The translations under genes and the position numbers were made by a program. Shown piece by piece: positions 1 through 23,523 of a DNA stretch of 24,617 nucleotides. The stretch lies in IMG/VR virus record IMGVR_UViG_3300035670_001192, positions 1-24,617 of that record; one strand, given 5' to 3'. The notes under the pieces are model-generated. The model had not been told where the DNA came from. It was given only the letters and a program-made list of their open reading frames with translations, and ran no database searches. Position 1 is the first letter of the stretch, and every line of letters begins with the position of its first letter. This DNA is from a virus.

Positions 1-1153
1 CTGTTAATTGGTCAGATTTTGGTGAATGATATAAATTTCTATATCCTCTTTCAATTACAGCATCTAATGTTGCCCAACCAATTGAAGCATTTTCAACTAC
101 TAACATTGCATTATTATACTCAGAAGCTAAACCTACTAAGAAATAACCATATTCTTTAGGAGGTAATTGTCCTCTATATTCCGCAACTTGTGTATTAGTA
201 GCAATATCAATAACATGACAAGCAGAAGAGTCTTTACCATCACCTCTAGCTACGTCAGCTAATATCATATATTCTCTTGTATAATCAGCTGGTTCCCAAA
301 TCCATAAATTTTGGTCTACTCCTCTACGTTCTACAGGATCTTTAATAGTTGTTTCTTTTATAAATTCAATCCACTCAGGATAAAATACAACATCTCCTGA
401 GGTACTAAAGTCACAATCACATTCTTGGGCTGCTAATCTAGGATCACCTAACAATTCATCTTGACGTTTTCTCCAATTTTCATCTCGCTCAGGGTGAACA
501 TACCAAGGCAATTTAATTGGTAAAAAGTCATTTTCTTGGTTTTCAGCTGACACCCATGTTTTATGGAACCAGTTACCAGTACCATAAGGAGTAGACAATA
601 CAATCGCGCCACCACCAGTTGCTAATGTTTGTTGAGCAGAAGCCCAAATCTCACCAATTTGTTCAATGAATGCTGCCTCATCGACAATTAGCAAAGATAC
701 TGCTTCTGATCGACCTGCATCACTACTTGCTGAAGTGGCTTTAATTTGAGATCCATTACTTAGTCGTAATGATAATTTGTTATTTTCTTCGGCTGTTATT
801 TTTAACCATGAAGGTAAATTATCAAACATAAACTTAACTTTCGTAACCATGTTACGAGCAGTTTCTTGTTTAGTTGCAATACAAAGTACGTTTTTGTCTT
901 TATGGAATAACATTAACCATAAAGAATAACCCGCGGCTAGTGTAGAAATACCTAACTGACGAGATTTTAATATAATTGAGTAAGGATTATCTCTTAATAA
1001 ATGGAGTACTTTTTCTTGGAAAGGATATAAATTGAATATTACTCGACCACGTTGAGGGTGTTGAATATTACAATATTTTTTCATAAAGTGAGCCGGATCT
1101 TGGGCACACTTCAAGTATTCTTCTCTGATTATTTGTTTTAAATCTTGGCTCAT
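1..1153 (-). CDS. terL: Terminase large subunit, T4 gp17-like (3' end cut by window edge)
   Basis: ATP-driven DNA packaging motor and headful nuclease, docking on the portal of the prohead. The 384 visible residues start at the ATG at 1153. An ATPase domain comes first: Walker A-like SRQLGIST at residues 64-71 (the degenerate form usual in large terminases), Walker B LLIVDEA at 154-160, and coupling motif STPYGTGN at 187-194. The RNase H-like nuclease begins with D300 in LADVARG and continues with E354 in VVEN. The third catalytic acid should lie beyond position 1, so roughly a quarter or more of the protein is missing. It is the last gene seen in its transcription unit, 10 bases after the spanin-like pair. 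Its start resembles the leaders of the cargo genes (DLKQIIREEYL), a warning that such short motifs can arise by chance. The assignment is secure. Confidence 0.97.
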   Translation of the reverse strand, partial: MSQDLKQIIREEYLKCAQDPAHFMKKYCNIQHPQRGRVIFNLYPFQEKVLHLLRDNPYSIILKSRQLGISTLAAGYSLWLMLFHKDKNVLCIATKQETARNMVTKVKFMFDNLPSWLKITAEENNKLSLRLSNGSQIKATSASSDAGRSEAVSLLIVDEAAFIEQIGEIWASAQQTLATGGGAIVLSTPYGTGNWFHKTWVSAENQENDFLPIKLPWYVHPERDENWRKRQDELLGDPRLAAQECDCDFSTSGDVVFYPEWIEFIKETTIKDPVERRGVDQNLWIWEPADYTREYMILADVARGDGKDSSACHVIDIATNTQVAEYRGQLPPKEYGYFLVGLASEYNNAMLVVENASIGWATLDAVIERGYRNLYHSPKSDQLT

Positions 1154-4886: not shown

Positions 4887-5490
4887 TCATTTCATAATAA
4901 AATGAATCTCCATCTTCAGTTATCCATCTATCAGATTGGTTTTCAACTGAGGATAATTCAGTGTCTACTTTAAATTGTTTTAAATCTTGTGGGAGAGATT
5001 TAGTTACCCAATTTGAATCTTTCCAAAATATTCTATTGTTTGGCATACATAATAAATATCCTTCATCTGATTCAAATATATGACCACATTTATAATCTGT
5101 TGGTTCATCACTATATGGATTATTATACCAATCTACTGTAAACATATAGGTTCCCCAAACTTTACTTCCATCTCTTAAAACAACTTGTGCTCTATGGTAA
5201 GCTAAAAAGTTATATTCTATTATAGAAACATTTTCACTAAAACAATCCCATAATTGTTTGAAATTAAATGGTATATCATTTGTTGGAATTTTTGTATATA
5301 TTTCAGAAAGTGGAACTCTAGAACGAACCATTCCTGTGTCTGTCATAACATGAAATGTTAATATAACTCCAGCACATGATTGGATACCAAAAACATATAC
5401 ATTATAAAACTCATCTGAATCTTTAGGGTTTTTAGTAAAATATGATTTACGAACTAGGGCTTTAAAACTTGGAATATTTTCATTTAACAT
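4873..5490 (-). CDS. Conserved phage protein of unknown function
   Basis: A 205-residue protein resembling a conserved unknown of T4-like phages of aquatic hosts. Recognisable stretches are VFGIQSCAGVILTFHVMTD (about 33-51), FKQLWDCFSENVSIIEYNFL (about 77-96), a SKVWGTYMFTVDWYNN stretch (about 109-124), and the segment CGHIF then MPNNRIFWKD. It looks like a soluble, mostly beta protein without membrane segments or catalytic signatures I can name. It shares a 1-base TAATG junction with the upstream gene (stop at 5492-5490, start at 5490), so translation is probably coupled. I do not assign a role. Confidence 0.75.
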   Translation of the reverse strand: MLNENIPSFKALVRKSYFTKNPKDSDEFYNVYVFGIQSCAGVILTFHVMTDTGMVRSRVPLSEIYTKIPTNDIPFNFKQLWDCFSENVSIIEYNFLAYHRAQVVLRDGSKVWGTYMFTVDWYNNPYSDEPTDYKCGHIFESDEGYLLCMPNNRIFWKDSNWVTKSLPQDLKQFKVDTELSSVENQSDRWITEDGDSFYYEMNETV

Positions 5491-5810
5491 TATTTTTCTC
5501 TTATTAATAATTCACCTAACACCTCTAAACGTCCAACTTCACGTTGGAATTCAATTGGTGTCATATTTAATGATATCTTCTTTAATGTTTGTTCAAATTC
5601 TTTTTTAGCTGATTCTTTATCAAATTTACCTTCAGTAGCTTTTTTATAATAAGGAGCTTTAACTTTAAAATGATGCCAAGTTAAGAGTGCTAAACCACCT
5701 TTTTCTTCAGCATTTGAAGCTATTTTTGCAGCACCTTCACCACGTTTTTTAGCAAACTCCTCAAAGGTTTCTTTATTTGCTTCTAATAGTAATTTTATAA
5801 ATTTTATCAT
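5490..5810 (-). CDS. Conserved small phage protein with capsid-targeting-like leader
   Basis: The ATG at 5810 gives 106 residues and makes a classic ATGA overlap with the upstream stop, so it is preferred over the ATG at 5825. The protein begins MIKFIKLLLEANKETF, a short hydrophobic/basic helix ending in L-L-E|A, the form of T4 capsid-targeting peptides cut by the gp21 protease. The body contains KKRGEGAAKIASNAEEKGG and LTWHHFKVKAPYYKKA, recalling a family seen in T4-like cyanophages that often reads TYHHFKVKLPYY. It is basic and helical, and its function is unknown. A virion-internal protein is an inference from the leader and neighbours. Confidence 0.75.
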   Translation of the reverse strand: MIKFIKLLLEANKETFEEFAKKRGEGAAKIASNAEEKGGLALLTWHHFKVKAPYYKKATEGKFDKESAKKEFEQTLKKISLNMTPIEFQREVGRLEVLGELLIREK

Positions 5811-6196
5811 TTTGTTTTTCCCCAAGTTTTACCTTTACCTTTTGCTTTACATCCTGCAGGAGTTGGTCTACAAGCAGGATATTTAGAACGTTTTTCACCT
5901 TCTTTTCTACCACAAGCTTTATATCCTCCTTTTCCATCAGGTGCATTACAATCTACCCAACCACCTTCTTTACCTTTAGGACCAGAACGTTTAAACCACT
6001 TATGAAGACTTTCGTCTTCATTTAATTCTTCTTCTTTAATGTCTTTCCAAATTTTACCTTGGCGACATCTAACTACAGCACCTGACTTGTAAGCTGAAGG
6101 TTTATCAAATTTACGGTCAGCAATACGAAGACATCTGTCTCGTTTTTTCTTTTCTTCTTCAAGAATAGATTTTAATATGTCTTGTAGTTTTATCAT
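5807..6196 (-). CDS. Cys-rich basic two-module phage protein (DUF5872-like)
   Basis: The ATG at 6196, one base after the upstream stop, gives 129 residues; the frame also reaches an ATG at 6229 inside the upstream gene, which I reject. Residues 1-14 are a leader (MIKLQDILKSILEE). Module one (about 18-52) holds DRCLRIADRKFDKPSAYKSG and VRCR with C22 and C44, a form frequent in marine T4-like phages. Module two (about 63-129) runs from LHKWFKRSGP through GGWVDCN, YKACGRKEG, YPACRPTPAGC to GKTWGK, with C83, C95, C109 and C116 placed to bind a metal; it recalls DUF5872. The protein is very basic, so DNA binding inside the head is plausible but not shown. Confidence 0.75.
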   Translation of the reverse strand: MIKLQDILKSILEEEKKKRDRCLRIADRKFDKPSAYKSGAVVRCRQGKIWKDIKEEELNEDESLHKWFKRSGPKGKEGGWVDCNAPDGKGGYKACGRKEGEKRSKYPACRPTPAGCKAKGKGKTWGKTK

Positions 6197-6197
6197 T

Positions 6198-6848
6198 TTA
6201 CCAGTATCCGCTAAAGTTTTTACTTCCACCTAATGACTTCCAATATCTTCCAATACGGCAAGACCAATAAGATGCTTTTGTTCTGTCTTTTTTCTGTGGG
6301 CAATTATGTCTTTTACTAAAAGCTTGTCTAGCTTTAGGGTTATTTACTTTACTAGATAAACCACCTGAATCACCAAATGATACTTTTTTAACTTTGCCTT
6401 TATCCATAACGTAAACATAGAACTTCTTACCAGAAGCACCACCACGTTTTGGTTTACCAATTTCTACTTTTTTACCTTGGTATTCAGCTTCATTTACCTT
6501 ACCTTCTTCAAGTATAGGCATATCTAAAGGTACCATTTGACCTTCAAATATTCCGTATTCACCTAATTTAGTTTCAGTAATAATTTCTTTATCAATACCA
6601 GACACATCTAAAATGTCACGAGAATATAAAGATCTTGCTTCTTTCCATAAATCTAAAAATGCTTTAGAACCATAACGGAATGTATTCTCAGATAACGGTA
6701 ATTTACTGTCTATATGGTACTGTAAATGTTCAGTCATCAAGGTACGCGACTCTAAATTTTCGTTTAATATAGGCGCTTTAGTTGGTTTTGTTGCTGTGCA
6801 ACAATCTTTACCTTCTAATGCCTCTCTAATTAACTGCTTTAAATTCAT
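6198..6848 (-). CDS. Leader-bearing virion-internal candidate with C-terminal SFGDSGG/RHNC domain
   Basis: A 216-residue protein. The leader MNLKQLIREALEG ends in an I-R-E|A site. Further possible gp21-type sites follow at LNE|N (28-31), LEE|G (113-116) and VNE|A (118-121), the last just before the C-terminal domain. That domain (about 122-216) has the pattern KKVSFGDSGGLSSKVNNP, ARQAFSKRHNC, DRTKASYWSCRIGRYWK, a basic Cys/His module very common as an unknown in T4-like phages of aquatic bacteria. The four Cys/His positions suggest metal binding. The middle (about 30-110) is unrecognised. The start lies four bases after the shared intergenic 8-mer, in a 17-base junction identical to that before the gene at 2311. 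Confidence 0.78.
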   Translation of the reverse strand: MNLKQLIREALEGKDCCTATKPTKAPILNENLESRTLMTEHLQYHIDSKLPLSENTFRYGSKAFLDLWKEARSLYSRDILDVSGIDKEIITETKLGEYGIFEGQMVPLDMPILEEGKVNEAEYQGKKVEIGKPKRGGASGKKFYVYVMDKGKVKKVSFGDSGGLSSKVNNPKARQAFSKRHNCPQKKDRTKASYWSCRIGRYWKSLGGSKNFSGYW

Positions 6849-6860: not shown

Positions 6861-8092
6861 TATTTAGTTTTACTAACCCTTAAAGATAAAGGTAACAATT
6901 TTCCTGAAGTGTTTCTAACTGAAACTTGATATTGTGAAGGACCAAATATAGGACTATTAGTATCTATTTTCATAGTTAATTGTTTTGTATTAGGTCCTGG
7001 GTATTTGATTTCTGTTTTAGTTATTTCACCAATAGCATTTGTAGCGTCTTCAGCTGTAAGTAAAGGTATAACTTTTACTTCACCTGGTTTGGTTTCTCTA
7101 ACATAGTAGTAACCAAAACCTAAAGATGAAGCTAGTAATTTTTTAAATTTTTCAGTGTCAATTTCAGCTTTAGACCAACTATCTTCTGTACCTTCTTTAG
7201 TCACATATTGGTTTAATCCATCTGCTAATTTTTGAGAGTCAATATTAAAAATATCAAATAATAAAGCTATTGATGGGTTAGAATTTTTCTTACTTTCATC
7301 ATAAATAACTTTACCATCTTTCTCATAAATAAAAGGAACATTAGGACCACTATAAACACCACTACCTGCTACATTCTTTAAAGAAATATAATATTCTTTA
7401 CCACCATAAGTTATTGTTATATCTGATATAGTTTTACCTATGTTTTGAGGACCATCTAAACTTAAACTTCGTTTAGTATCAGTAGCTCCAACAAAATCAA
7501 TATTTTTAGCTTCAAGTTTAGTATTATCTATACCTAAAGTATTATATAAAGTTTTTAAATCATTAGGTAAATCATCATTTGGTTTGCCTACATTTGCTTT
7601 AGCCTTAGCTTCAAACTCTTTTTCATATTGTTCACCTTTATTGCCTCCTCCACTTACAATGATTCTAACTAAACCAAATTGGTCAGTATCCATTTCATAC
7701 ATTGTAAATTTACCTGAAGGATTGGGTCCTTGTTTTGGACCATAGGTAGTAACATTTTCTGCACCTAGTAAATCTTTAAAAAGTTGAGTCATTTTTTCAG
7801 GCTCTATTTTATTAGGATTACCTAATCGGTTTTTATCACTTTGTGCTTTAAAACCTAATTCAGGGTCAGCTTTACTTAAAACATATTCAACTGCTTTTTT
7901 AGTATTAGCGTTAATTTCTCTATCTGTCACTTCTAATAACAATGTTTCTTTTAATATTCCAAAACTAAACTCAGGAACATGTTTTTTAATTAATGATTCT
8001 AACAAAAAAACATCCTGCTCATTATTCATGTCAGGATATCCTTTTGGAAATTTATAACTATATTTTTTAAAAAATTTATCTAATATATTCAT
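6860..8092 (-). CDS. PD-(D/E)XK-like putative nuclease
   Basis: A 410-residue protein whose central part has the layout of a PD-(D/E)XK nuclease. There is a Glu-bearing helix KGEQYEKEFEAK (about 152-163), then SDITITYGGKEYYISLKN (223-240) with D224 and the terminal S-x-K (S237, K239) in place of the usual E-x-K, then a Gly-rich loop. This resembles nuclease-like proteins found in T4-like cyanophages. Residues 47-60 include LKETLLLEV, which could be a cleavage site ending a pro-region. The C-terminal third is unrecognised. Catalysis is uncertain because the middle acid is replaced. It is coupled to the upstream gene by a TAATG junction. Confidence 0.6.
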   Translation of the reverse strand: MNILDKFFKKYSYKFPKGYPDMNNEQDVFLLESLIKKHVPEFSFGILKETLLLEVTDREINANTKKAVEYVLSKADPELGFKAQSDKNRLGNPNKIEPEKMTQLFKDLLGAENVTTYGPKQGPNPSGKFTMYEMDTDQFGLVRIIVSGGGNKGEQYEKEFEAKAKANVGKPNDDLPNDLKTLYNTLGIDNTKLEAKNIDFVGATDTKRSLSLDGPQNIGKTISDITITYGGKEYYISLKNVAGSGVYSGPNVPFIYEKDGKVIYDESKKNSNPSIALLFDIFNIDSQKLADGLNQYVTKEGTEDSWSKAEIDTEKFKKLLASSLGFGYYYVRETKPGEVKVIPLLTAEDATNAIGEITKTEIKYPGPNTKQLTMKIDTNSPIFGPSQYQVSVRNTSGKLLPLSLRVSKTK

Positions 8093-8553
8093 TAGGCGGT
8101 TTCTTCAGGTGTTTCTTCGGCTGGTGTTTCTTCAGGTGTTTCACCAGGTGTTTCCTCTCCTCCTGGTTTTTCTTCTGTTACTCCATAAGATAAAACACGA
8201 GCGATAGCTTCTGTAGCTGATTCTTCTTCACTTAAATTTAATAGGTAATATTTTTTACCTTCAATTTGAGCAACCCAGCTTCTAGGAGAGTAAGTTAACA
8301 TAAAAGGTTCACCATTACCAAGTACAATACGGAAAGTAGTTGGTTTAGGAGCAACCCATTGAATATCTGTTATAAAGATTTCATATTGATCTGTTAACAA
8401 ATCAACAATTACTTGTTTTAAAGTTGGAAATTTTTGTAAGACTGGAAATTTAGGAGCATCTAAAGATACTGTATCCTGAGCCTGAAGAGTATCAGGTTTG
8501 TATACTTGTTTTACAAGTACCTTAATTTTTTCCTTTAATTCGTCTCTAGTCAT
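8092..8553 (-). CDS. Conserved phage protein with Pro/Glu/Thr-rich tail
   Basis: A 153-residue protein, function unknown. Residues 1-19 form a basic helix (MTRDELKEKIKVLVKQVY) like the neighbouring leaders but lacking a clear cleavage site. Residues about 45-125 form a compact alpha/beta domain (VIVDLLTDQYEIFITDIQW, then FRIVLGNGEPFMLTY). From residue about 126 the chain becomes an acidic P-E-T repeat tail. TAATG junctions on both sides tie it to its neighbours, so it is likely made in step with them. A structural or scaffold-core role is possible. Confidence 0.7.
   Translation of the reverse strand: MTRDELKEKIKVLVKQVYKPDTLQAQDTVSLDAPKFPVLQKFPTLKQVIVDLLTDQYEIFITDIQWVAPKPTTFRIVLGNGEPFMLTYSPRSWVAQIEGKKYYLLNLSEEESATEAIARVLSYGVTEEKPGGEETPGETPEETPAEETPEETA
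8101..8160. repeat. Short imperfect tandem repeat coding the P-E-T tail
   Basis: On the plus strand the unit GGTGTTTC recurs four times within about 60 bases, separated by short TTC/CAG spacers. It encodes GETPEETPAEETPEET on the minus strand. Such repeats change length easily by slippage. Confidence 0.8.
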
Positions 8554-9722
8554 TATTTCTTTTGTTTAGCAGTTGGACCTTTTCCTCCACCTTTTGCTTT
8601 ATAAGCTGCTATTGCACCAGCAATAGCACCAGCTGCTTTAGCTGATTTGCCTTGTCCTTGAATTTTTTTCTTCAAGGTTTCATATGATTCTTCCATTTTA
8701 CCTCCAGGAATTTTTTTAGCCCAATATCCTTTTGGTAAACCTTCTTCTAAATAAGGATCAGCAATTTTTTTAGCCGCATCTAAGTTACCTTTATTTAAAG
8801 CTGTTCTAGCTTGTTTAAGGTTACTTTGATCTGAGGTATCTTTATTAGCTTTGGCTTTAAGTGCTTTAGCAATTTTAGCGGCTAATGTTTCTTCAGCACT
8901 AATTTCAGCTTCCATCATTGGAGCTTCAGGTTCACCCATATGAGGCTCTTCACCTGTAGCAGCGTCTACAGCCGCGTCAATAGCTGGTTCTTTAATTTCA
9001 AAATCAAGGTAATGTTTAGCTGAAACCATGTTATTCATAGCTGTGGTAATTTTGGATTGCCACCAAGCCGGAAAATCAATTTCACCTCCCATTTCTTCAA
9101 ATTCTTCTAACATTCCATAAAGTTCCATAGCGTATTTTCCAATACGATATAATTCGCCTTTAATCATATGTGGTTCATTATCTTCATGACCTAAGTCAAT
9201 ATCTTCTTTTTTAAGTGATTTAGGTGTAGTAGCAGCCTTCATAGAAGCAAATACTTTTTTAGCTAACTCAGCATATTCATCAGCTGTAGGAGCAGGTTTT
9301 TCATTTTCTTTTAACTTAACACCTCTGCCTTTTAAAACATCAGCATAAGTTACTTTACCATCACCTGTTAAATCAGGAAAACTTTCACCCATTTCAGACT
9401 TATAATCATTATATTTTTCAATAAGTTGATCAATAGCTTCTTCTCTAGATATGCCTAATTGTGTCATCATATCTTGAATGTCTTCTTCTGAAGGTTGGTA
9501 AGATTCTTCTTGCATTAGAGTTTTTCTAACGAGTTCTTTTAATTTTTCTTTGTTCATTGATTCGGCTTGTTTTTTAGCTATGTTGGTAGCTCGTCCATAC
9601 ATAACTGCTTCCGCATCCTTACCATAGCGTTTAACTAAGGCTTTTTTTTCTTTTTTAAGATTTTTGAGAATTTCTTCTCTTTTTTCTAGTTCTGCTTTGG
9701 TAAGGCTACGTTCGTTAAGCAT
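8553..9722 (-). CDS. Modular internal/scaffold-like protein with EF-hand-like loop
   Basis: A 389-residue multi-module protein. Residues 1-54 carry LTKAELEKREEI and RATNIAKKQAE, a helical module frequent in cyanophage proteins. Residues 56-70 form a leader-like helix (MNKEKLKELVRKTLM). DLTGDGKVTYAD (117-128) has the spacing of a dockerin/EF-hand calcium loop. Residues about 178-250 (EPHMIKGELYRIGKYAMELYGML, FPAWWQSKI, SAKHYLDFE) form a helical module well known in T4-like phages. The end (about 330-389) contains GYWAKKIPGGKM, SYETLKKKIQ and a GxGKGPTAKQKK tail. Possible L/M-x-E cleavage sites lie between modules (LKE|N, MEE|S). It begins with a TAA stop/ATG gap of five bases after the histone-like gene. 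No enzyme motif is seen; structural core protein or polyprotein are the main options. Confidence 0.75.
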   Translation of the reverse strand: MLNERSLTKAELEKREEILKNLKKEKKALVKRYGKDAEAVMYGRATNIAKKQAESMNKEKLKELVRKTLMQEESYQPSEEDIQDMMTQLGISREEAIDQLIEKYNDYKSEMGESFPDLTGDGKVTYADVLKGRGVKLKENEKPAPTADEYAELAKKVFASMKAATTPKSLKKEDIDLGHEDNEPHMIKGELYRIGKYAMELYGMLEEFEEMGGEIDFPAWWQSKITTAMNNMVSAKHYLDFEIKEPAIDAAVDAATGEEPHMGEPEAPMMEAEISAEETLAAKIAKALKAKANKDTSDQSNLKQARTALNKGNLDAAKKIADPYLEEGLPKGYWAKKIPGGKMEESYETLKKKIQGQGKSAKAAGAIAGAIAAYKAKGGGKGPTAKQKK

Positions 9723-9904: not shown

Positions 9905-11341
9905 TTATTTTATAATTTTCTTTAACATTGGGAACATTGATTCATTTAAATCTTCTTTAACAACATGTTGTTTAGTAAAGAAAGTTAATGAGTTACCAAT
10001 TTGAGTAGCTAATTTTTCATCACCTAAAGCTTTAGCTGCTTCTAAAGCGGCTTCTAAGTTGTCTTGAACTGATTTTTTATCACCAGTTAAGTCAGCGTCT
10101 GCGTTTTGAGTAACATCAATTTTACCTGGACCTTGAGGTTCTTCTGTAGAAAATTCATCTGTTACTTCAATTTCTTCATCTGCTACTTCTTCGTCTTTAG
10201 CTTCTTCTAAGCCTTTTTCAGCTTCAATTTTCTTATTTACCCAGTCTGAAAATTCTTCTCTGGTTGTTAATGTTTTGATTTGATCTAAAGAGTTTTTAGC
10301 ATCCTCAAATCCAAATCTTTCTTTAGCATAACTATAAGCTTGTTTTTGAAGAGGAGTTAAACCATCAGCTGTATTTGAGCTTGCAAATTTTCTTTTTACT
10401 TGTCTAAATATGTTGTCTAAATCAGAATCTTTTAAATCTCTTCCATAAGCATAATAGTCATAAACATCTTGAGGAGTATTAAGTTGTTTAATATCATCTA
10501 AAAATTCTTGTGCTCTATCTTCACCACTAATTTCTATTTCATATTGGTAAACGTAGTCTTGAAGAGGTGTTAAACCTTCAACTTCATCTAACATTTCTTC
10601 AATTTCTGCTAAGAAATCATATCCTGAGGTTTCATCAGTTACATCTAGGTTCATTTCTGCTAACACCATCTCTTTGATCTTAGCCTTAAATTCTGACATT
10701 TTCATTTTTTTCTTTTCTATTTCTTCGCCTTTTTTAACTCCAGCGCCATAAACTTCTTCTTCGCCTTTGTCTTTAGCTGTTACATCTTTAGAACCTTTAT
10801 CAGCTCTTTTAAACTCATCATAACCTTCACCAATATAATCTTCCATATCATCTGTAGTAGCATAAATTGGGTTTCCAGGAATAGCTACATTGTGGATATT
10901 ACCGTTTTGAATAAGATAGCTTCCACCAGCATATGGTTCACCATCTAAGTCTAAGTCAAAAGAATACTCATCTACTGAGTTCATAGTAACTTCAAAGTCT
11001 CTACCTTCTTTTTTAGACATATATTTAGCAAAGTTTTTAGCTACTTTAAAAGTATAACTATTATATGCTTCTTCAATTGTACCTTCACTTAAATCCATCA
11101 TATCTTTGATGTCTGAAATGTAGTCTTCAACTTCTTTAGCTGATTCCATCCCAGTAAATCTATCCCAAGCGTTTGGATCCATGTCTTCAATTTCTGCTTC
11201 TATTTTTGAAGCCATTTCTTTACCATATTTTTGCTCTAGATACTCAGGAGCATAAAATTGACCCTGAAATCCTTCATTTAATGTACTAAAAAATGTAGCC
11301 TTGTTTTCAGCTATCATCTTTTTTAAGTCAAATTTTTTCAT
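9905..11341 (-). CDS. Modular polyprotein-like internal protein with duplicated GLTPLQ domain
   Basis: A 478-residue acidic protein. The leader is MKKFDLKKMIAE. A beta domain follows at about 94-160 (KVAKNFAKYMSKKEG, DLDLDGEPYAGGSYLI, GNIHNVAI), a module seen in T4-like phages. A second leader-like helix lies inside (MSEFKAKIKEMVLAEM, 215-230). Then come two copies of a domain of about 44 residues starting GLTPLQ (256-300 and 327-370), and a C-terminal module (about 410-462) with LTGDKKSVQDNLEAALEAAK and QIGNSLTFFTKQHV. Sites fitting [LIVM]-x-E|[AGSN] lie at 10-13, 21-24, 84-87, 89-92, 378-381 and 465-468. The end MFPMLKKIIK is basic. The start lies 11 bases after the shared intergenic 8-mer. 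Confidence 0.75.
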   Translation of the reverse strand: MKKFDLKKMIAENKATFFSTLNEGFQGQFYAPEYLEQKYGKEMASKIEAEIEDMDPNAWDRFTGMESAKEVEDYISDIKDMMDLSEGTIEEAYNSYTFKVAKNFAKYMSKKEGRDFEVTMNSVDEYSFDLDLDGEPYAGGSYLIQNGNIHNVAIPGNPIYATTDDMEDYIGEGYDEFKRADKGSKDVTAKDKGEEEVYGAGVKKGEEIEKKKMKMSEFKAKIKEMVLAEMNLDVTDETSGYDFLAEIEEMLDEVEGLTPLQDYVYQYEIEISGEDRAQEFLDDIKQLNTPQDVYDYYAYGRDLKDSDLDNIFRQVKRKFASSNTADGLTPLQKQAYSYAKERFGFEDAKNSLDQIKTLTTREEFSDWVNKKIEAEKGLEEAKDEEVADEEIEVTDEFSTEEPQGPGKIDVTQNADADLTGDKKSVQDNLEAALEAAKALGDEKLATQIGNSLTFFTKQHVVKEDLNESMFPMLKKIIK

Positions 11342-11361: not shown

Positions 11362-12723
11362 TTATTTTTTTAATTTAGTGAGAATTGCTTCAGCTAATTC
11401 TTTTTCTCTACGTTTCATATAATCTGTTTTACCTGAAGGTTTTGGGTTATATGATTTAGCTGGTTTATCTTTTTTACTAACAGCGTAATCGTCTTGGGCT
11501 TTTCTACGCTTCATATAGTCAGTAGCTTCATCTAAATCTCCATCAACATTATAGTCTAAAACTTCAATATCTTGATTTTTAAAATCATAATATAAGTCAT
11601 AAATATCCTCAGGAGTGTTAGCGGCGTAAACATTAGATCCATGCATTTTAATATTTGATCTTCTATATTTATCATCAAACATATCCATTGCTATACGAGC
11701 ATCACGAAGTGAAATTTCAATAAAATAAGGTTCATCTAAATCACTACCTACACCTTCGTTTACTTTGTTATATAAATCCTCATCAGCATTCCATTTCCAA
11801 TCGTTTGCTTTAAAAGATTTTAATTTTTTAGCTTTTTGATATTCAGCTGATGATAATTTAGATGCTTTTAAATTAACTGCTTCTTTAACAGCTTTGTTTA
11901 TCTTAATAACATCTTTTACATTAACAAAATCTCCATTTTCTAATTCGTAAGTTGAAAAAGGATCATTTTCATCTACATCTACCTTTACTATTTTAGATTC
12001 TATTTTTTTATTATTTTTATCTTTATAGATTACAATATCTCCTTTTGAACCTTTTGCTTCATTTAATCCTTCTTCAATTTCTTCAGCAGCACCTACAATC
12101 TCATTATAGTCATCCATAGATAAGATGTCTTTTTCTTTGTTTAAAGAAATTGCTTTTTCAGTTACATCATGCAAATCAACATCAGCAGAAGCATCTTCTC
12201 TTGAATATTCTAACATACGAATAAACAAAGGAATATCCATTGTAATTGTATCAACTACATCTTCTTCTTCAGCTTCATTTAATCCTCTTTTAGCTAATTC
12301 AATTTTAACTAATTTTTGCTGGAATGCTAAAGGGGTATTAGAGATGCCTTTATTACCTTCGGCCCATTTCAATAATGTTTCATTAGGTAATTTTTTAATT
12401 TGAGCAGCAAATTCTTGTGGTGTCCAATCTTCACCTGCCCATCCTATTTTACGACCTAATTTAGTTAAGGGAGATGCTTCACTCATTGATGATTTAACAG
12501 CACTTCCTAAGTTAAATAAATAAACAATCTCATCAAATGTATCATACCAATCATCTGATTTGCCAATTGGTTTATAAATAGCTTTAAATGGTTTAAATTT
12601 ATTACCTGACATTTCATATTTAGCGCCTAAATCATCTAATTGCTTTTTAGCTGTGTCAATAGCTGTTTCTTCCTCATTTAAAGGTTTAGAGAAAAATTCT
12701 TTTATTTTTTGAATATCTTTCAT
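11362..12723 (-). CDS. Polyprotein-like protein with repeated L-N-E-A sites between small modules
   Basis: A 453-residue protein built of small modules. Sites fitting the T4 gp21 prohead protease pattern occur at LNE|E (15-18), MSE|A (80-83), LNE|A (148-151), LNE|A (220-223), VKE|A (279-282), VNE|G (321-324), LDE|A (397-400) and LAE|A (443-446). Between them are recognisable phage modules: a helical piece with TPQEFAAQIKKLP and LVKIELAKRG; ITMDIPLFIRMLEYSRED with DLHDVTEKA (about 160-191); an SH3-like basic strand set (KGDIVIYKDKNNKK to DVIKI); and FIEISLRDARIAMDMFDD to NIKMHGSNVYAANTPEDIYD (334-376). The peptide TDYMKRR occurs twice near the C-terminus (401 and 433). The spacing suggests processing into peptides of roughly 50-75 residues, which is inference. 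Confidence 0.75.
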   Translation of the reverse strand: MKDIQKIKEFFSKPLNEEETAIDTAKKQLDDLGAKYEMSGNKFKPFKAIYKPIGKSDDWYDTFDEIVYLFNLGSAVKSSMSEASPLTKLGRKIGWAGEDWTPQEFAAQIKKLPNETLLKWAEGNKGISNTPLAFQQKLVKIELAKRGLNEAEEEDVVDTITMDIPLFIRMLEYSREDASADVDLHDVTEKAISLNKEKDILSMDDYNEIVGAAEEIEEGLNEAKGSKGDIVIYKDKNNKKIESKIVKVDVDENDPFSTYELENGDFVNVKDVIKINKAVKEAVNLKASKLSSAEYQKAKKLKSFKANDWKWNADEDLYNKVNEGVGSDLDEPYFIEISLRDARIAMDMFDDKYRRSNIKMHGSNVYAANTPEDIYDLYYDFKNQDIEVLDYNVDGDLDEATDYMKRRKAQDDYAVSKKDKPAKSYNPKPSGKTDYMKRREKELAEAILTKLKK

Positions 12724-12743: not shown

Positions 12744-13315
12744 TATTCTTTCTTTTGTTTCTTTAAATACTCTAAAGCTTCCTCTTTGTATTTAAGTAAT
12801 TGAGACTTACCATTACCATCCCACTTTTCAATATCACCTGCTTCTGTAATGAATTGTTCTTTAGTATTAATCAATTCGTCAAACCAAACTTCAAAATCTT
12901 TAATAGTACCTTCTAAATGTTGGTTAATAACATCTTTTTCAAATGTTTCTAATTTACCCTCTTTACGTAATTTATGTTCAAAATCAACCTGACAATTAAA
13001 GCAATGACCATACATTATAAACCATTTTTTATCTAAGTGTGGTTTAGTAGTTTTAGAACATTTAGGACAAAATAAAGGTAATACAATACCTTCTTTTGCC
13101 TTATCAAGTTTTGTAATGTTTTGTTTTAAACCATTTTTAATAGTCCAAGTACGCCCATCTTCTTCCCAAACATCACCTTCATTATGGAATTCTTTTGCTT
13201 TTTGATAACCAGTTCCCATAGTAGTTTTGTCTCCATACTTGCCTTGAACCAAGTTACGAAGACGTTCTACGTCTCTATGTTTGAACTCTTTCTTTAAAAC
13301 CGAATCTTTACTCAT
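12743..13315 (-). CDS. Zinc-ribbon conserved phage protein
   Basis: A 190-residue protein resembling a conserved unknown of T4-like phages. The N-terminal part has HRDVERLRNLVQGKYGDKT (13-31) and GDVWEEDGRTWTIKNGLKQ (47-65). A zinc ribbon follows with C83-P-K-C86 and C105-F-N-C108. The C-terminal half is helical and charged, containing FITEAGDIEKWDG. It lacks the leader seen on many neighbours. Coupling is by a TAATG junction to the upstream gene, and the gene ends in the shared intergenic 8-mer. A role as DNA- or protein-binding adaptor is plausible; no catalytic residues are seen. Confidence 0.78.
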   Translation of the reverse strand: MSKDSVLKKEFKHRDVERLRNLVQGKYGDKTTMGTGYQKAKEFHNEGDVWEEDGRTWTIKNGLKQNITKLDKAKEGIVLPLFCPKCSKTTKPHLDKKWFIMYGHCFNCQVDFEHKLRKEGKLETFEKDVINQHLEGTIKDFEVWFDELINTKEQFITEAGDIEKWDGNGKSQLLKYKEEALEYLKKQKKE

Positions 13316-14100
13316 TATTTTTTAAATTCTTTTTTGATAATTTCTTTTAATTGTGATTTTGTAATTTTACCTTTTTTAAGTAATTCATATAAATCAAAGT
13401 CTGAATATGATGTAGCACCTGGAGTGGCTCCTGGTCTTGTTGCCATATCTCTAGTTTGTCTTGGTTTAGAATCTAAAGTAGAAGATGGTTTTTCAGGAGC
13501 TACAGTTAATGGAGATGAATCATAATCAGCATAATCAATTTCTACATTAAATTTGTTAGCATAATTATCAAATTCATCACTTGACATGAAATCAGAAACC
13601 TCATCTTCATCCATAAAAGCACCTGATTTTTGTAAGTCATTAACAAATCTTTCAAATTTAGAACCTGGTTTGTAATCCATAGGGAAAGATTTACCTTTGT
13701 ATTTAAAAAATACAGTAGCTATTCTTTTGTCTAAGGCTTCTTTTAAAGCTACTTTTTTATCTTTACTGTAGCTTTTTAATTTACCTTTACCTTTCATTTG
13801 GTTAGAGATTTTACCAGAAACAGCTGCTTCACCTTCTCCACCTATTTCTATTTTCATTTCCCCTTTTTCTTTCATAGGGATAAATTTAATAGTTGAAAAT
13901 TTATCATTAGCATTGTCTATTGCTTTAATAACATCAATGTCTTTTTCAATGATTGCTTTAGTATCAGGATCTTGGAATTTACGTTTTTCTTTAGTAAATT
14001 CTGTTTTATAATCATTAGTTTCTTTAAACCATGTCATAATATTATCCATGATTGTTTTCAAATCCTCTTCTGAGTTTGCTACTATTCTTTTAAAGGCCAT
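13315..14100 (-). CDS. Hypothetical protein with SHOCT-like C-terminus
   Basis: Not recognised as a whole. The 261 residues begin with an alpha/beta domain (about 1-155) that includes KFSTIKFIPMKEKGEMKIEIGGEG, here split by eye into a strand pair, and KYKGKSFPMDYKPGSKFERF. Residues about 195-230 are a Pro/Ser/Thr/Arg-rich linker. The last 26 residues (DLYELLKKGKITKSQLKEII) resemble the short SHOCT-type helix pair that often mediates oligomer contacts. It overlaps the HAD gene by 11 bases upstream and the zinc-ribbon gene by one base downstream, so it is an integral part of this operon. Confidence 0.7.
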   Translation of the reverse strand: MAFKRIVANSEEDLKTIMDNIMTWFKETNDYKTEFTKEKRKFQDPDTKAIIEKDIDVIKAIDNANDKFSTIKFIPMKEKGEMKIEIGGEGEAAVSGKISNQMKGKGKLKSYSKDKKVALKEALDKRIATVFFKYKGKSFPMDYKPGSKFERFVNDLQKSGAFMDEDEVSDFMSSDEFDNYANKFNVEIDYADYDSSPLTVAPEKPSSTLDSKPRQTRDMATRPGATPGATSYSDFDLYELLKKGKITKSQLKEIIKKEFKK

Positions 14101-14632
14101 ATGCTTGTAGTTGTTTAATTGTGTCTTGTGTGTTTGTATGTAAAATTCCTATGCCGCCTTGACTTCTCCATTGTTCAATGTTATCAGGGCGGTCATCGAT
14201 AAGTATTTTATCTCTACCTGAATAATTTTGTTTTTTAGAAGCAGATGCTAAGATTAATTTAGTTCCTGGGATATTGTTTTTAACCCATAATCTTTTTCCT
14301 AAACGAGACTCATTTTCTCTTGAAGGAGCGGATAATAAAGTCGGTTGTTTATCTTTAATATAATCCCATAACTCTTTACCATCAGGCATCCAAGGCATTC
14401 CTACCCAAAATTTAACACCTGTTTCTTTATCAATAAAATTCCAAAACTTATCAATACCATATTTAGCTTGATATTGAGACGCTGTTAAATGTTCAGGGTT
14501 TAATGATTTAAAACGACTATCAAAGTTAGTTAATACACCATCCATATCACAGTAAATTTTATACTGTTGTTCTGGTTCAACTTCTGCTTCTTTAAGTTGT
14601 TTATAAACGTCTGTTAATTTTAACTTATACAT
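14090..14632 (-). CDS. HAD-family 5'(3')-deoxyribonucleotidase-like phosphatase with leader
   Basis: A 180-residue HAD hydrolase of the NT5C-like kind. Residues 1-15 form a leader (MYKLKLTDVYKQLKE|A) absent from ordinary family members. Then come the HAD motifs: YCDMDGVLTNFD with D29 and D31 (motif I), LLSAPS at 99-104 (motif II), K133 or K134 in LASASKKQNY (motif III), and ILIDDRPDN at 143-151 (motif IV). The expected activity is removal of a phosphate from a (deoxy)nucleotide. It overlaps the nucleotidylyltransferase fusion by 8 bases. The leader suggests the enzyme is packaged in the head; that is inference. Confidence 0.85.
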   Translation of the reverse strand: MYKLKLTDVYKQLKEAEVEPEQQYKIYCDMDGVLTNFDSRFKSLNPEHLTASQYQAKYGIDKFWNFIDKETGVKFWVGMPWMPDGKELWDYIKDKQPTLLSAPSRENESRLGKRLWVKNNIPGTKLILASASKKQNYSGRDKILIDDRPDNIEQWRSQGGIGILHTNTQDTIKQLQAYGL

Positions 14633-16484
14633 TTTTTATATTATCCTCCCAATTACGTAACATCATATTTCCTTTTTCATATGCTTCTCTTTCAATTTCA
14701 GGCAAATCACCATCCTTATTTGTATTTTGAGTTGTTATATTATTTAATCTACCTTCTAAATTTTGCATATGATGAATCATCTCATGTGAAAATGAACGCA
14801 AAACATCTTTTGGGTGTCTGTTCATAGTGTAAAGAGTGATTGACTTTTCATTAGGATCATAATAAGCCGTTTTACCCAAAAGATTGGATGCGTTTTCTTT
14901 ATCATCCTTTATAACCTTTATTTTAGGCAATGGTTGAATTTTTATTCCATTGTCTATCATATACTTAGATAAAGATAACATCCCATCTTGGAGATTCCAA
15001 TCTTTTTCAAATGTTTCTTTAACAAATGTTTCAGCTAATTCATTTAGTCCAAATACATCATTTTCTTTTACAGGAGCAAAACCTGAACCATAAGGTAAGG
15101 CTGTACCTGCTTGTGGGTCAGATGCTTCTTTCATTTTACGTAAACGTTCTGTTTTCTTTTTAGACATTTCTTTACGTTTTTCAATATAATCTAAAGCACG
15201 TTTTAGTCTTGATTTAACTTCAGGATCTTTAGCTCTACCATAAGCAGCTCTTACTCGTTGATGAATTACATTTATAATTTGAGATTGACGAGCGTGAGAT
15301 TTAGCTTTAAATGATTTTTTATTTAAAGTATCAACTATATCTTCTTTAGTTTTAAAAGATATACCTACTGTATCTTTAGGATCTTCATCTGTGTATAATC
15401 TGCGACCTGATCCTTTAGGTTTTTTACCTGTTCCTACTTTAGGATCTTCTTCATTAATTGGATTAGGTAAAATAGCTGTTACAAAATCTCCTGATTGTTT
15501 AAATGTTACTCCAGGTATAGCTTTAGAAATAAATGCTCTATATAATTGATCTCTTTGAGTACCAAAATATTCTTCACTTGATTTTTTAGAAGGAGAATAA
15601 ATAATAGCTTTAGCTTTAAATTTTTTAAGATATTTTTTAATTATATCTACTATAGTAGCCATTACTCTATACATTTCACCTTTATTAACTACTATTTTAG
15701 CTGATGAACCTTCAGCACCTTTAGGTTTAGCTGAAAATTCAATTTCTAAAGCAGGAAGAGATTCTATTTGTCCTGCAGGAAAGAAAACGGTTGATTTAAT
15801 ATCTACATCATATTGAGTTTCACTATCTGTTACAAAACGAGTGTAAACATAGTAACCTTCTTGATCAATTTCTTCCCATTTATAGGGTTTAAGACTTGCT
15901 TCACCTACTTCTGTTATTTTTTCTTCTTTAACTACTGGAGAAATAATATTCCATACTTGTTCTTTCTCTTTAATGTCTGGAATAAATTGGAAAAATTGTT
16001 CTTTATTGTTGTCTTTGACTGCTTGTCTTGTTTTAGTACCACTTACTCCACCAGATGATGTAATTACTTTAACTTCAAGGTTTGGGTACTTAGATATAGA
16101 TTTTGTTCTACTAGCTATATCTTCTAAATCACTATCTTCACCTTCTCTAGCTCCTAACACCCAATATACTTTAGTATCAGGATTGTCTTTAGCATAATTT
16201 AAAACAGATTTAACAGGGGCAACAGAAGGTTCAACACTAACTTTATCTGAAAGGTAGGGTTTATAGATTTCCCATATTTTAATAGACTCATCTTGAGTAA
16301 TACCATCTCTAACTCCTCCACCAACAAATATTTTTAACTCATCTATGTTGGGTAATTCTTCTAATGTTTGTTTTGCAACATTAAAGTGACCTTTGGTTGG
16401 GGGTTTAAAACCCCCACCATAAATGGCTACTGTTTTTTTAGTATCTAACAGTTCCTCAATAAGGAATTTAGTTAGTTCATTCAT
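14625..16484 (-). CDS. Multidomain polyprotein: nucleotidylyltransferase, phage modules and C-terminal HExxH metallopeptidase
   Basis: A 619-residue fusion. Residues 1-12 form a leader (MNELTKFLIEEL). Residues 18-180 are a nucleotidylyltransferase: GGGFKPPTKGH (23-33) is the (H/T)xGH signature, with VSGTKTRQAV (147-156) as the second motif. Residues about 195-340 form a phage module (GEASLKPYKWEEID, VVNKGEMYRVMATIVDIIKKYLKKF). Residues about 364-450 form another (DEDPKDTVGISFKTKEDIVDTL, KSHARQSQIINVIHQRVR), common in cyanophages. Residues about 490-619 carry HEMIH at 567-571 with EIEREAYEKG near 597-606 supplying a possible third ligand, so a zincin-like metallopeptidase. Candidate gp21-type sites lie between the parts (VGE|A, INE|E, MKE|A, VKE|N). 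Coupled by TAATG upstream. Confidence 0.85.
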   Translation of the reverse strand: MNELTKFLIEELLDTKKTVAIYGGGFKPPTKGHFNVAKQTLEELPNIDELKIFVGGGVRDGITQDESIKIWEIYKPYLSDKVSVEPSVAPVKSVLNYAKDNPDTKVYWVLGAREGEDSDLEDIASRTKSISKYPNLEVKVITSSGGVSGTKTRQAVKDNNKEQFFQFIPDIKEKEQVWNIISPVVKEEKITEVGEASLKPYKWEEIDQEGYYVYTRFVTDSETQYDVDIKSTVFFPAGQIESLPALEIEFSAKPKGAEGSSAKIVVNKGEMYRVMATIVDIIKKYLKKFKAKAIIYSPSKKSSEEYFGTQRDQLYRAFISKAIPGVTFKQSGDFVTAILPNPINEEDPKVGTGKKPKGSGRRLYTDEDPKDTVGISFKTKEDIVDTLNKKSFKAKSHARQSQIINVIHQRVRAAYGRAKDPEVKSRLKRALDYIEKRKEMSKKKTERLRKMKEASDPQAGTALPYGSGFAPVKENDVFGLNELAETFVKETFEKDWNLQDGMLSLSKYMIDNGIKIQPLPKIKVIKDDKENASNLLGKTAYYDPNEKSITLYTMNRHPKDVLRSFSHEMIHHMQNLEGRLNNITTQNTNKDGDLPEIEREAYEKGNMMLRNWEDNIKNV

Positions 16485-16876
16485 TATTTCAATTTCATTA
16501 TTTTTTCTTTTGCTACTTTTTTCTTTTCCTCAATGTCTGTTTTAGCTGAGCGAAAAGCTTCCATAGCATCTTCCATTTCTTTAAGAGAAGTTTCATATTG
16601 TTTAATAGCCTCAGCAGCGGCTCTACGAGCATCAGATTTTTGCTTATAGATACCTAATACATTTTCTTCTTTCAAACCACCTCTAACTTGGTTAGCAAAA
16701 TATAAAACAGTAGATTCAAATACTAAATCTTCAATTTTATCTTCTTTTGATGTAGGTTTTTCAGTTACAAAGAATTTACCAATTTCATCTACCATTGGTG
16801 ATTTTTCTTCTTTAACAGGCTCAAGATAGTTTTTTTCTGTTTCTTCTATCTCATTTAATAAGTCTAATAATTTCAT
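16484..16876 (-). CDS. Small helical protein with capsid-targeting-like leader
   Basis: Unrecognised, 130 residues. It begins MKLLDLLNEIEETEKN, a leader with an L-N-E|I site, followed by an acidic stretch with VKEEKSPMVDEIGKFFV. The rest is helical: VLYFANQVRGG, then a long coiled-coil-like region (QKSDARRAAAEAIKQYETSL to MEAFRSAKTDIEEKKKVAKE). There are no Cys and no catalytic signature. It overlaps the kinase start region by 4 bases and the polyprotein by one base, so all three are translated as a block. Confidence 0.72.
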   Translation of the reverse strand: MKLLDLLNEIEETEKNYLEPVKEEKSPMVDEIGKFFVTEKPTSKEDKIEDLVFESTVLYFANQVRGGLKEENVLGIYKQKSDARRAAAEAIKQYETSLKEMEDAMEAFRSAKTDIEEKKKVAKEKIMKLK

Positions 16877-17634
16877 TTGTTTATAAAGTTAGTGATTTTT
16901 TGTTGGGCTGATTCTAAAGTATCAAACTCTGGTTGTGTGTTAAGAGTTTGTTTTATATCTGAATATATTTGTTGTGTTTCTTTTTTAGATTTCTCTATTT
17001 CCTCAGGTGATTTTTCTTTACCTACCTGTCCTAAAGGTTTAATATATGTTTTAAAAATATACTCTTCATCAAAATTTTGGTTTGTGTCTTTAGGATCATT
17101 ATTTAACAATACAAAGTCACTACCAAAAGCTTGTCTATATACGTCTATATTTTTATTTACATCACGCCAAGAACGTAATACGATACTTGGTAATAATGAT
17201 CTGTCTCGTTGTTTATTACGTTCTAAAGACGTTATAGGCGAGACATAAGTCATTAACATGAATGTATCGTAACCTAGATCTTCTAATTGTTGTTTTTTCT
17301 TTAATAAAGTTTTAGAAGAACCTCCTACACTATCAATTAATAAATTTTTAGCATTTTTTAAAGCATCTTGATACTTAACATCTGTTGCTTTTCTTGCTTG
17401 ACCCATTAACTCACCTGCCTTTTTAAGTTCATCAGGTGACATTTTAGCTAACTTCATTCCAATACCAGAGGCCTTTAATAAGGCCTCATAAGTATCATCT
17501 ACATTAATAGTAGTAAAGTCTGAAGGTATTAATTTAGAGGAGATATAAGACTTCCCTGATCCAGCTGGACCTGCCATAAAAATGGCTTTAGGCTTTCCTT
17601 GTATTTCTTTTAATAAAGAGACCAGTCCAATCAT
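16873..17634 (-). CDS. Zeta-toxin-like P-loop kinase with leader
   Basis: A 253-residue P-loop kinase. Leader MIGLVSLLKE|I, then KAIFMAGPAGSGKSYISSKL with Walker A GPAGSGKS at 22-29. FTTINVDDTYE supplies an Asp pair after the first beta-alpha unit, LLIDSVGGSS resembles the second strand motif, and RNKQRDRSLLPSIVLRSW supplies lid arginines. This layout is typical of the zeta-toxin/AAA_33 group of small-molecule or UDP-sugar kinases found in many phages. The C-terminus (about 205-253) is a Lys/Glu/Gln-rich helical tail. It is the first gene after the 17660-17683 terminator and so likely starts the cargo operon; the shared 8-mer lies 14 bases before its ATG. Substrate unknown. Confidence 0.82.
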   Translation of the reverse strand: MIGLVSLLKEIQGKPKAIFMAGPAGSGKSYISSKLIPSDFTTINVDDTYEALLKASGIGMKLAKMSPDELKKAGELMGQARKATDVKYQDALKNAKNLLIDSVGGSSKTLLKKKQQLEDLGYDTFMLMTYVSPITSLERNKQRDRSLLPSIVLRSWRDVNKNIDVYRQAFGSDFVLLNNDPKDTNQNFDEEYIFKTYIKPLGQVGKEKSPEEIEKSKKETQQIYSDIKQTLNTQPEFDTLESAQQKITNFINK

Positions 17635-17648
17635 GGAAATATTTTGTC

Positions 17649-17656
17649 ATAAATAT
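17649..17656 (-). promoter_or_regulatory. Shared intergenic 8-mer
   Basis: ATATTTAT on the coding strand, 14 bases before the ATG at 17634 and just after the terminator at 17660-17683, where a new promoter would be expected. This placement is the best argument for a promoter role. Confidence 0.55.
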
Positions 17657-17659
17657 AAT

Positions 17660-17683
17660 AAAAAAGGCTTGGATAACCAAGCC
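17660..17683 (-). terminator. Rho-independent terminator
   Basis: A perfect 7-bp stem GGCTTGG/CCAAGCC (arms 17677-17683 and 17666-17672) with a four-base loop is followed on the minus strand by six T. The other strand has a weaker T-rich run, so some bidirectional use is possible. It separates the replication-type genes from the kinase gene that opens the next unit. Confidence 0.92.
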
Positions 17684-17707
17684 CTTTCTTTTAATATTTT
17701 TATTTAA

Positions 17708-17971
17708 TTAGATAAGATCAAGAGCTTTTAAAGCTACTGAGAATTTATTTGGGCTAATTTGGGCACGTTGTTTTTCAGTATCTATAGACATAATTTCAGC
17801 TTCTTGACCTACTTCGAAACCATGGGCTTCTTTATCGTATCTAGTTATATTTTTATTAAGTCTAACTTTGTCTCCTACTTTAAATTCCTCATTTAATACT
17901 TCCATCATTTTCTTAGCTTGACCTTCCGTGATGATACCTGCTAATTGATTCATTCTGATAATGTCTTTCAT
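17708..17971 (-). CDS. Small KOW/SH3-like protein
   Basis: Start at the ATG at 17971 gives 87 residues: MKDIIRMNQLAGIITEGQAK, then a helix ending VLNEEF, then FKVGDKVRLNKNI and FEVGQEAEIMSI, which look like the strands of a small SH3/KOW-type barrel. The N-terminal NQLAGIITEGQ stretch recurs in many phage and flavobacterial short proteins. The ATG at 17989 is possible, but it falls inside the shared intergenic 8-mer and adds a low-complexity VNNNK stretch, so I prefer 17971. ITE|G and LNE|E are candidate protease sites. It is the last gene before the 17660-17683 terminator. Function unknown. Confidence 0.7.
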   Translation of the reverse strand: MKDIIRMNQLAGIITEGQAKKMMEVLNEEFKVGDKVRLNKNITRYDKEAHGFEVGQEAEIMSIDTEKQRAQISPNKFSVALKALDLI

Positions 17972-17987
17972 TTTATTATTATTTACC

Positions 17988-17995
17988 ATAAATAT
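17988..17995 (-). promoter_or_regulatory. Shared intergenic 8-mer
   Basis: ATATTTAT on the coding strand, 16 bases before the preferred ATG at 17971. Confidence 0.45.
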
Positions 17996-18006: not shown

Positions 18007-18780
18007 CTAAGATTCCAAATTTCTTTTTACTGTGGTCTTGAATTCAGTAAAGATTGGAGCGTGAGTAGGATTTTCTAAATCAAATAAACGTTTTACTGTC
18101 TTAAAGATATCAATGTTTTCCTCTTGTGTTCTAGTAGATAAAACCATTTCCCATCCTTTACCTTGCATTTTTTCTTTATTGGATTTACGTTTAGATGATT
18201 TTAACCAAAGGATACCATAATTGTCTACTTTTTTACCATAACATTCCTCATAACACTTACCGTAAACAGCAGTCTGTAATTCATAAGTAGGTTGAATATG
18301 ATTAGATGTTTTAAAGTCAATTAACCAAAGTTTATCTTCAATTTCAACAATCAAATCACAAGTTCCTGCTACTTTTAATTCATCTGAAAATAAATGAACT
18401 TCAGCCTCAATTAGTTTTGGATTATAGGTTTCCCAAAAGTCTACAAAACGTAAAAACATTTGCCACACATCAGGACTATATTGAGGATTACCATATTGGT
18501 TCATAAAATTCATTTCTTTACCTTCAAGGTATTCTTCAATCATTTCATGAACTTGGGTTCCTTCCTCACCTGCTTTTTTAACAATATGTTCAGCAGAGTA
18601 ACCTACTTTTTTAAGCCAATCCTCAAAAAATTTACCTTTAGGATAATAACCTAAAACATAAGTAATTGATGGGTAGTATTCTCCATTTCGTCTATAATAA
18701 CGAGAGTCTGGTAATGTTATTTGTTTAGCATCATCTGATACTTCTAAAATTCTATTGTAAGATTTTTTTATTTTGCTCAT
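18007..18780 (-). CDS. PD-(D/E)XK exonuclease, RecB/Cas4-like
   Basis: A 257-residue nuclease with the full RecB-type motif set: H78 in GTQVHEMIEEYL, E125/E127 in LIEAEVHLF, D142 in AGTCDLI, D155 and K157 in LIDFKTS, and the QxxxY motif Q169-Y173 in LQTAVYGKCY. This is the PD-(D/E)XK exonuclease fold used in phage recombination and end processing. It starts through a TAATG junction with the HNH gene. Before that insertion it would have followed the primase directly, so a replication/recombination role fits. No iron-sulfur Cys cluster is evident, which argues against a true Cas4. Confidence 0.88.
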   Translation of the reverse strand: MSKIKKSYNRILEVSDDAKQITLPDSRYYRRNGEYYPSITYVLGYYPKGKFFEDWLKKVGYSAEHIVKKAGEEGTQVHEMIEEYLEGKEMNFMNQYGNPQYSPDVWQMFLRFVDFWETYNPKLIEAEVHLFSDELKVAGTCDLIVEIEDKLWLIDFKTSNHIQPTYELQTAVYGKCYEECYGKKVDNYGILWLKSSKRKSNKEKMQGKGWEMVLSTRTQEENIDIFKTVKRLFDLENPTHAPIFTEFKTTVKRNLES

Positions 18781-21775: not shown

Positions 21776-21780
21776 TCATT

Positions 21781-22827: not shown

Positions 22828-22837
22828 ATTTTATATT

Positions 22838-23500: not shown

Positions 23501-23514
23501 TTGTTTATTTTATT

Positions 23515-23522
23515 ATAAATAT
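23515..23522 (-). promoter_or_regulatory. Shared intergenic 8-mer
   Basis: ATATTTAT on the coding strand, 14 bases before the ATG at 23500 of a structural gene. Confidence 0.45.
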
Positions 23523-23523
23523 A

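Follow-up and report, generated by a model that had tools for sequence, protein, structure and literature searches.

The window analysed here is a 24.6-kb stretch (24,617 nucleotides) of the IMG/VR virus record IMGVR_UViG_3300035670_001192. It contains a gene for a modular protein, P0001, which can be divided into a short leader and seven modules, M1 to M7, and which lies among genes that share some of its features (Table 1; a slash marks the bond after a putative cut site). P0001 has no Pfam or PHROGs family match, and a PDB sequence search gave nothing convincing. The first-pass annotation had described its parts as recognisable modules; the databases recognise none of them, and it is comparison with relatives that makes them visible.

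Table 1. Genes, leader and modules of the P0001 region, with the evidence for each
Feature	Position	Strand	Evidence or remark
Large terminase gene, C-terminally truncated	1..1144	minus	T4-like head cluster starts at the left edge of the window
Small genes with leader-like N-termini: LLE/A (5490-5825), IRE/A (6198-6848)	5490..6848	minus	N-terminal-site census
Genes 8092-8553 and 8553-9722	8092..9722	minus	Cores fused in 841-aa protein of phage immuto_2-6A
Second polyprotein-like gene, 478 aa, leader ...FFSTLNE/G	9905..11341	minus	5 strict sites, 0.97 expected
Modular polyprotein gene (P0001), 453 aa	11362..12723	minus	ORF and translation, site excess, relatives
Module M7, residues 400-445, basic, end LAE/A	11389..11526	minus	Followed by 8-residue tail AILTKLKK
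Module M6, residues 324-399, end LDE/A	11527..11754	minus	Recurs in L020, L024, L032, L079
Module M5, residues 282-323, end VNE/G	11755..11880	minus	Recombined in L010, L070, L083
Module M4, residues 223-281, end VKE/A	11881..12057	minus	SH3/Tudor-like small barrel; pLDDT about 74
Module M3, residues 151-222, end IEE/G LNE/A (two sites)	12058..12273	minus	Predicted three-helix mini-domain
Module M2, residues 83-150, end LNE/A	12274..12477	minus	Moved as a unit in L004, L005
Module M1, residues 18-82, end MSE/A	12478..12672	minus	13 full-length copies; pLDDT about 80
N-terminal leader MKDIQKIKEFFSKPLNE/, residues 1-17	12673..12723	minus	Capsid-targeting-sequence-like; site after E17
Neighbouring enzyme genes	14090..17989	minus	Leader-like N-termini in 14090-14632 (KQLKE/A) and 17708-17989 (IITE/G)

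P0001 is rich in sites of the type cut by a prohead protease. The gp21 protease of T4 cuts after L/I-x-E (PMC9026906), and nine matches to [LIVM]xE/[AGE] were found in P0001 (P1 Glu at 17, 82, 150, 218, 222, 281, 323, 399 and 445), compared with 1.96 expected from residue shuffling; none of 5000 shuffles reached nine. The strict T4-type motif, [LI]xE/[AG], occurs five times where 0.71 are expected (P 0.0002). As a control, the scan recovers the sites of T4 IPI (19), IPII (10), IPIII (10) and gp23 (65). Tail/baseplate-like proteins encoded in the same window (20858-24306) have a single site in 1133 aa altogether. The first-pass annotation had listed eight of the nine positions correctly, as P3 residues, and overlooked only IEE/G at 218; the two exact LNEA sequences it reported are present at residues 148-151 and 220-223. 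Acceptance of M or V at P3 and of E at P1' goes beyond the T4 motif, which counts against the mechanism proposed below.

Relatives of P0001 share its leader and differ in what follows. Seven were retrieved from IMG/VR by sequence search, and a degenerate DNA pattern encoding the leader sequence EFFSKPL.E gave 78 loci, where 49 distinct ORFs carry it, a few of them chance matches. These 49 ORFs have 198 sites after the leader, compared with 89 expected. With unrelated chance matches to the pattern left out (for example, L047 and L064), 41 non-redundant family proteins were kept. All members of the family have the leader, the module directly behind it varies, and the reshuffled modules of the 41 relatives are 40 to 100 aa long. 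The order is leader-M2-M1 in L004 and leader-M2-new-M3 in L005, with M2 directly behind the leader in both, while in L001 M2 is replaced by two other modules, and L006 and L007 consist of the leader and M3 only. Copies of M1 have five types of left neighbour and 11 types of right neighbour, M3 has at least 572 relatives in viral contigs, and M7 is found at 74 to 78% identity in L026, L055 and L077. Some members of the family have few sites, a further point against the mechanism.

Module breakpoints, defined as the internal ends of local alignments between family proteins, fall at the sites. Among 124 sharp ends (segments with ≥ 80% identity), 66% lie within five residues of a site, compared with 15% of random positions, the ends being noisy and the relatives not independent; the comparison of breakpoints with sites that the first-pass annotation had suggested thus gave a clear positive answer. 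C-terminal ends of homology peak 0 to 1 residue past the bond and N-terminal ends 3 to 5 residues before it, approximately at the start of the motif. The decoy motifs [LIVM]xK and [LIVM]xD do not rise above background at breakpoints; shuffles and decoys together rule out a chance origin of the P0001 sites. In P0001 itself, eight of the nine sites have a breakpoint within six residues in at least one relative (six and nine relatives at the two ends of M1, one only at site 399), and site 445 has none in any relative compared. From a total of 202 sites, 151 are at the leader or a breakpoint, and the other 51 compare with 49.9 in shuffled interiors; therefore, the excess of sites is at the junctions. 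This comparison also shows no general depletion of sites inside the modules of the 41 family proteins.

Modules are not confined to one gene. Residues 255-321 of the 478-aa product encoded next to P0001 recur as a module within the EFFSKPL protein of L063, and a segment of the 13315-14100 product recurs in L022, L050 and L085. Together with the fusion of the 8092-9722 cores in the 841-aa protein of immuto_2-6A, these shared segments indicate that modules cross gene borders. The 841-aa protein also contains modules of the leader family and is barely enriched in sites (6 compared with 4.5 expected). In addition, the orthologue of 16484-16876 in the related contig G009 has a leader-like N-terminus. 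Sites of the form LxE/[AG] near the N-terminus cluster in the head and island segments of G009 (10 of 36 genes compared with 12 of 173 others, P 0.001) and of a second contig, G008 (12 of 38 compared with 9 of 121, P 0.0004), in gene bins drawn after the table was seen.

The island from primase to terminase is syntenic with that of G009 and of the cultured Flavobacterium phage vB_FspM_immuto_2-6A (immuto_2-6A), and the capsid proteins of immuto_2-6A and G008 share 53% identity; because of this, the T4-like phage of the window probably has a host in the Bacteroidota. The gene at 18780-19424 is HNH-endonuclease-like, lies between exonuclease and primase in the stretch of lowest GC content (23%) and is probably a mobile gene of homing type, as it is absent at the same place in G009 and immuto_2-6A. 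The gene at 14625-16484 encodes a 619-aa protein with a NadR/NMNAT-like nucleotidyltransferase and a C-terminal HExxH (SHEMIHHMQ) metallopeptidase-like domain, an architecture like that of polyvalent proteins; its counterpart in immuto_2-6A has 907 aa. Many family polyproteins end in a Cys-containing module (ELCPAGKAYIKRR...SAYLSGRAVKVCKG) that is similar to the SAYxSGxxVxxC core of a DUF5872 protein encoded at 5807-6229. A 104-kb contig assigned to a Nitrosarchaeum MAG (L267, JAHFUM010000005.1) also encodes M3 and looks like misbinned phage DNA.

Related genomes link the modular gene to a T4-type head cluster. The window itself encodes neither an S77 nor an S78 (HK97-type) protease and holds only the adjoining terminase, which matches residues 5-385 of the G009 TerL at 88% identity (tblastn). 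The gene order of G009 past the terminase is that of T4 (portal, gp68-like core, S77 protease, gp22-like scaffold and Gp23 capsid), with the protease about 4 kb beyond TerL, and by synteny an S77 protease is expected next to the terminase of the window. Among nine related contigs, five encode an S77 (T4 gp21-type) protease and five Gp23; a further 10 of 13 long module-bearing contigs encode S77, giving 15 of 22 long related contigs in total. In the first five, some 18 kb separate the modular gene from the protease, and Gp23 is present in five of five examined. The places of core genes in the portal-protease-capsid operon are occupied by other genes.

Head proteins of these relatives (capsid, core, scaffold and protease) share the motif of P0001. 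In four head clusters the capsid protein has exactly one site, ...TGLLE/GL at about residue 36 counted from the MSxxQ start. The core protein has three or four sites, three of them at matching positions, and scaffold proteins of the relatives have 8 to 15. Several observations concern other head clusters. The gp22-like scaffold of immuto_2-6A (L130:30627-31868) has a stretch of about 60 residues (GFEQWLDSVSAQMDKFG...) duplicated in tandem, with a hydrophobic-x-E/G site before each copy. In the 735-kb huge phage LR756501 (L107), the region 61904-67728, just upstream of the protease and capsid genes, contains several genes of 340 to 360 aa with leader-like N-termini (FLFE/A, FVNE/A) and an ORF ending in M3 behind LNE/S. 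The 268.7-kb contig G010 (IMGVR_UViG_3300032296_003307) has two S77 and two Gp23 genes, at 31 kb and 233 kb, and represents either one phage with two head clusters or two joined phages.

The first-pass annotation had read P0001 as a prohead-processed polyprotein, and the sites, their position and the company of the gene support that reading at the level of sequence. P0001 is likely to be a precursor like the internal proteins of T4, with one leader, which would be taken up into the prohead and cut by S77 into delivered mini-domain cargo. The main rival is that the chain, although cut by the prohead protease, is a disposable core or scaffold protein like gp22, gp67 and gp68, whose pieces mostly leave the head. 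This is how T4 core proteins behave, being cut into multiple fragments that mostly exit (PMC9026906), and the number of sites in the relatives' scaffold proteins is in keeping with it. However, the head operon already has separate genes for a gp22-like scaffold and a gp68-like core protein. Moreover, modules are swapped intact, and for at least one of them independent folding is predicted, which would not be expected of a disposable scaffold. The conserved cores of two module types have 1 and 0 sites where 22.7 and 5.8 are expected, a weak argument as the sequences are related. A core or scaffold role is thus unlikely.

Structure prediction places the sites outside folded parts. The model of full-length P0001, built from the full-length alignment A3, is poor (pLDDT 49, pTM 0.21), with M1 and M4 reasonably confident, and all junctions except 445 are in segments with pLDDT < 50. 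Burial of the sites in continuous domains, which the first-pass annotation had named as evidence against processing, is therefore not what the model predicts. Modelled alone, M3 is a compact three-helix mini-domain (core pLDDT > 90, C-terminal end < 60) with disordered ends and has no significant PDB match; Foldseek matched M4 weakly to Tudor domains (E 0.02, TMt 0.63).

Unrelated sequences converge on the motif at module borders. Among 82 distinct ORFs with M3, 53 have dissimilar upstream sequence (< 35% identity), and hydrophobic-x-E is found at the exact junction offset (-13 or -12) in 36 of these 53 contexts and within -13 to -9 in 43, compared with one to three at each of the offsets upstream. 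In all 12 contexts of the VPSNIKEFA module, which is absent from the window, L-x-E stands immediately ahead of the module, and in 11 of them a second L-x-E lies five residues before the first. M6 is preceded by hydrophobic-x-E in each of the four family members in which it recurs. The trend extends to most of the other module types tested, each with few contexts, and not to the PEGGPIA segment.

These data bear on a second alternative, that the chain stays intact and hydrophobic-x-Glu serves only as a favoured linker between modules or as the C-cap that closes each module's last helix. Flexible junctions in the prediction would suit a linker, as would P1' residues outside A/G at some sites and the enrichment at breakpoints of [LIVM]xE with any P1'. 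Nevertheless, the motif is the documented one of T4 gp21 and also forms the single propeptide site in the capsid protein of the same phages, unrelated upstream modules converge on it, the leader ends in it too, and [LIVM]xK and [LIVM]xD are not enriched. An intact chain is accordingly a still poorer candidate than a core protein.

Site composition indicates the level at which selection acts. At the 202 sites P3 is L (92), I (49), M (32) or V (29), P2 is mostly N, K, E or D, and P1' is A (113), G (45) or E (44). Site codons are near the overall usage of the genes, except that Leu at P3 is shifted from CTT to TTA; ordinary codons and varying P3, P2 and P1' therefore argue for selection on the protein rather than on a DNA repeat. 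Modules do recombine at junctions, but it is highly improbable that the shared letters are a DNA-level recombination hotspot with the protein motif as a by-product, since the site codons rule out such a source and the shared stretch would be just 9 to 12 nt, and variable.

Precursor processing may proceed as follows. The leader would take the chain into the prohead core, and during head maturation the S77 (gp21-type) protease would cut after hydrophobic-x-Glu, removing the leader and freeing about seven mini-domains of 40 to 76 residues. These would be kept in the head and be small enough to exit along with the DNA by way of portal and tail; mature T4 IPI (76 aa) is said to fold small enough for a portal of about 30 Å. 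Because every junction would be a cut site, phages could exchange, gain or lose modules with no harm to the products, and each phage would have its own assortment. In the host, the injected modules may act in early takeover or anti-defence. From motif, position and convergence, cutting of P0001 at its junctions is very probable, whereas retention of the pieces as delivered cargo is favoured only slightly. More tentatively, with the balance close to even, the gene may serve as a library of recombining cassettes for peptides of host takeover or anti-defence, in which exchangeable mini-protein arrays on one leader are released as separate injected factors.

If this is correct, prohead proteases not only trim capsid proteins and remove leaders but also free entire sets of small proteins from a common precursor. 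A single precursor would fix the stoichiometry of the cargo and make its content modular, and aquatic T4-like phages would deliver hundreds of unannotated mini-proteins at the first moment of infection, which the motif offers a way to find. It also suggests a simple design rule by which a T4-type head could be loaded with several proteins: leader, cut site and mini-domain. In the literature covered, which takes in full text from few subscription journals or preprints, no modular precursor released by a prohead protease was found.

Several known systems resemble P0001 in part. Polyvalent proteins of phages and conjugative elements are also multi-domain, have shuffled domains and are thought to enter the host with the DNA; however, they contain known enzyme domains and their proposed processing is by a built-in metallopeptidase (PMC5512222). 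The P0001 family has instead modules of 40 to 100 aa, no known domain and prohead-protease sites, and no enzyme domain was above cut-off in seven relatives tested, just as no Pfam or PHROGs domain was found in P0001. Inner-body and ejection proteins of phiKZ and SPN3US are likewise carried in the head, and a protease related to gp21 processes them at a short Glu-terminated motif, but that motif is A/S-x-E, and 13 of 14 mapped cuts in SPN3US remove or trim an N-terminal propeptide, leaving one body and no series of modules (PMC10052503, PMC5694885).

T4 itself provides the closest parallels. Like P0001, gp22, gp67 and gp68 have several L/I-x-E sites per chain and are cut by gp21 into multiple fragments, but they are scaffold and not exchangeable folded modules, and relatives of P0001 encode gp22-like and gp68-like proteins separately. 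IPI, IPII and IPIII have N-terminal leaders of 10 to 19 residues ending in hydrophobic-x-E/A (PMC9026906), and P0001 has such a leader, of 17 residues, with E at P1' (MKDIQKIKEFFSKPLNE/E) where many relatives have A or G. A change of the P1 Glu to Asp is reported to block the processing of T4 IPIII (PMC9026906). Small, fast-evolving bodies and a T4-type head operon with a gp21-type protease are further points of likeness, and processed IPI (76 aa) and IPII (90 aa) are near in size to the modules of P0001 (40 to 76 residues). No sequence similarity was found between T4 internal-protein bodies and modules of the P0001 family. T4 internal proteins have one site and one body, whereas P0001 has nine sites and seven modules and its family up to about ten modules per leader, reshuffled between phages; the single-module leader proteins of L006 and L007 connect the family to the classic internal proteins. 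P0001 resembles a T4 internal protein in arrangement and probably in what becomes of it, yet departs from it by its multi-module body.
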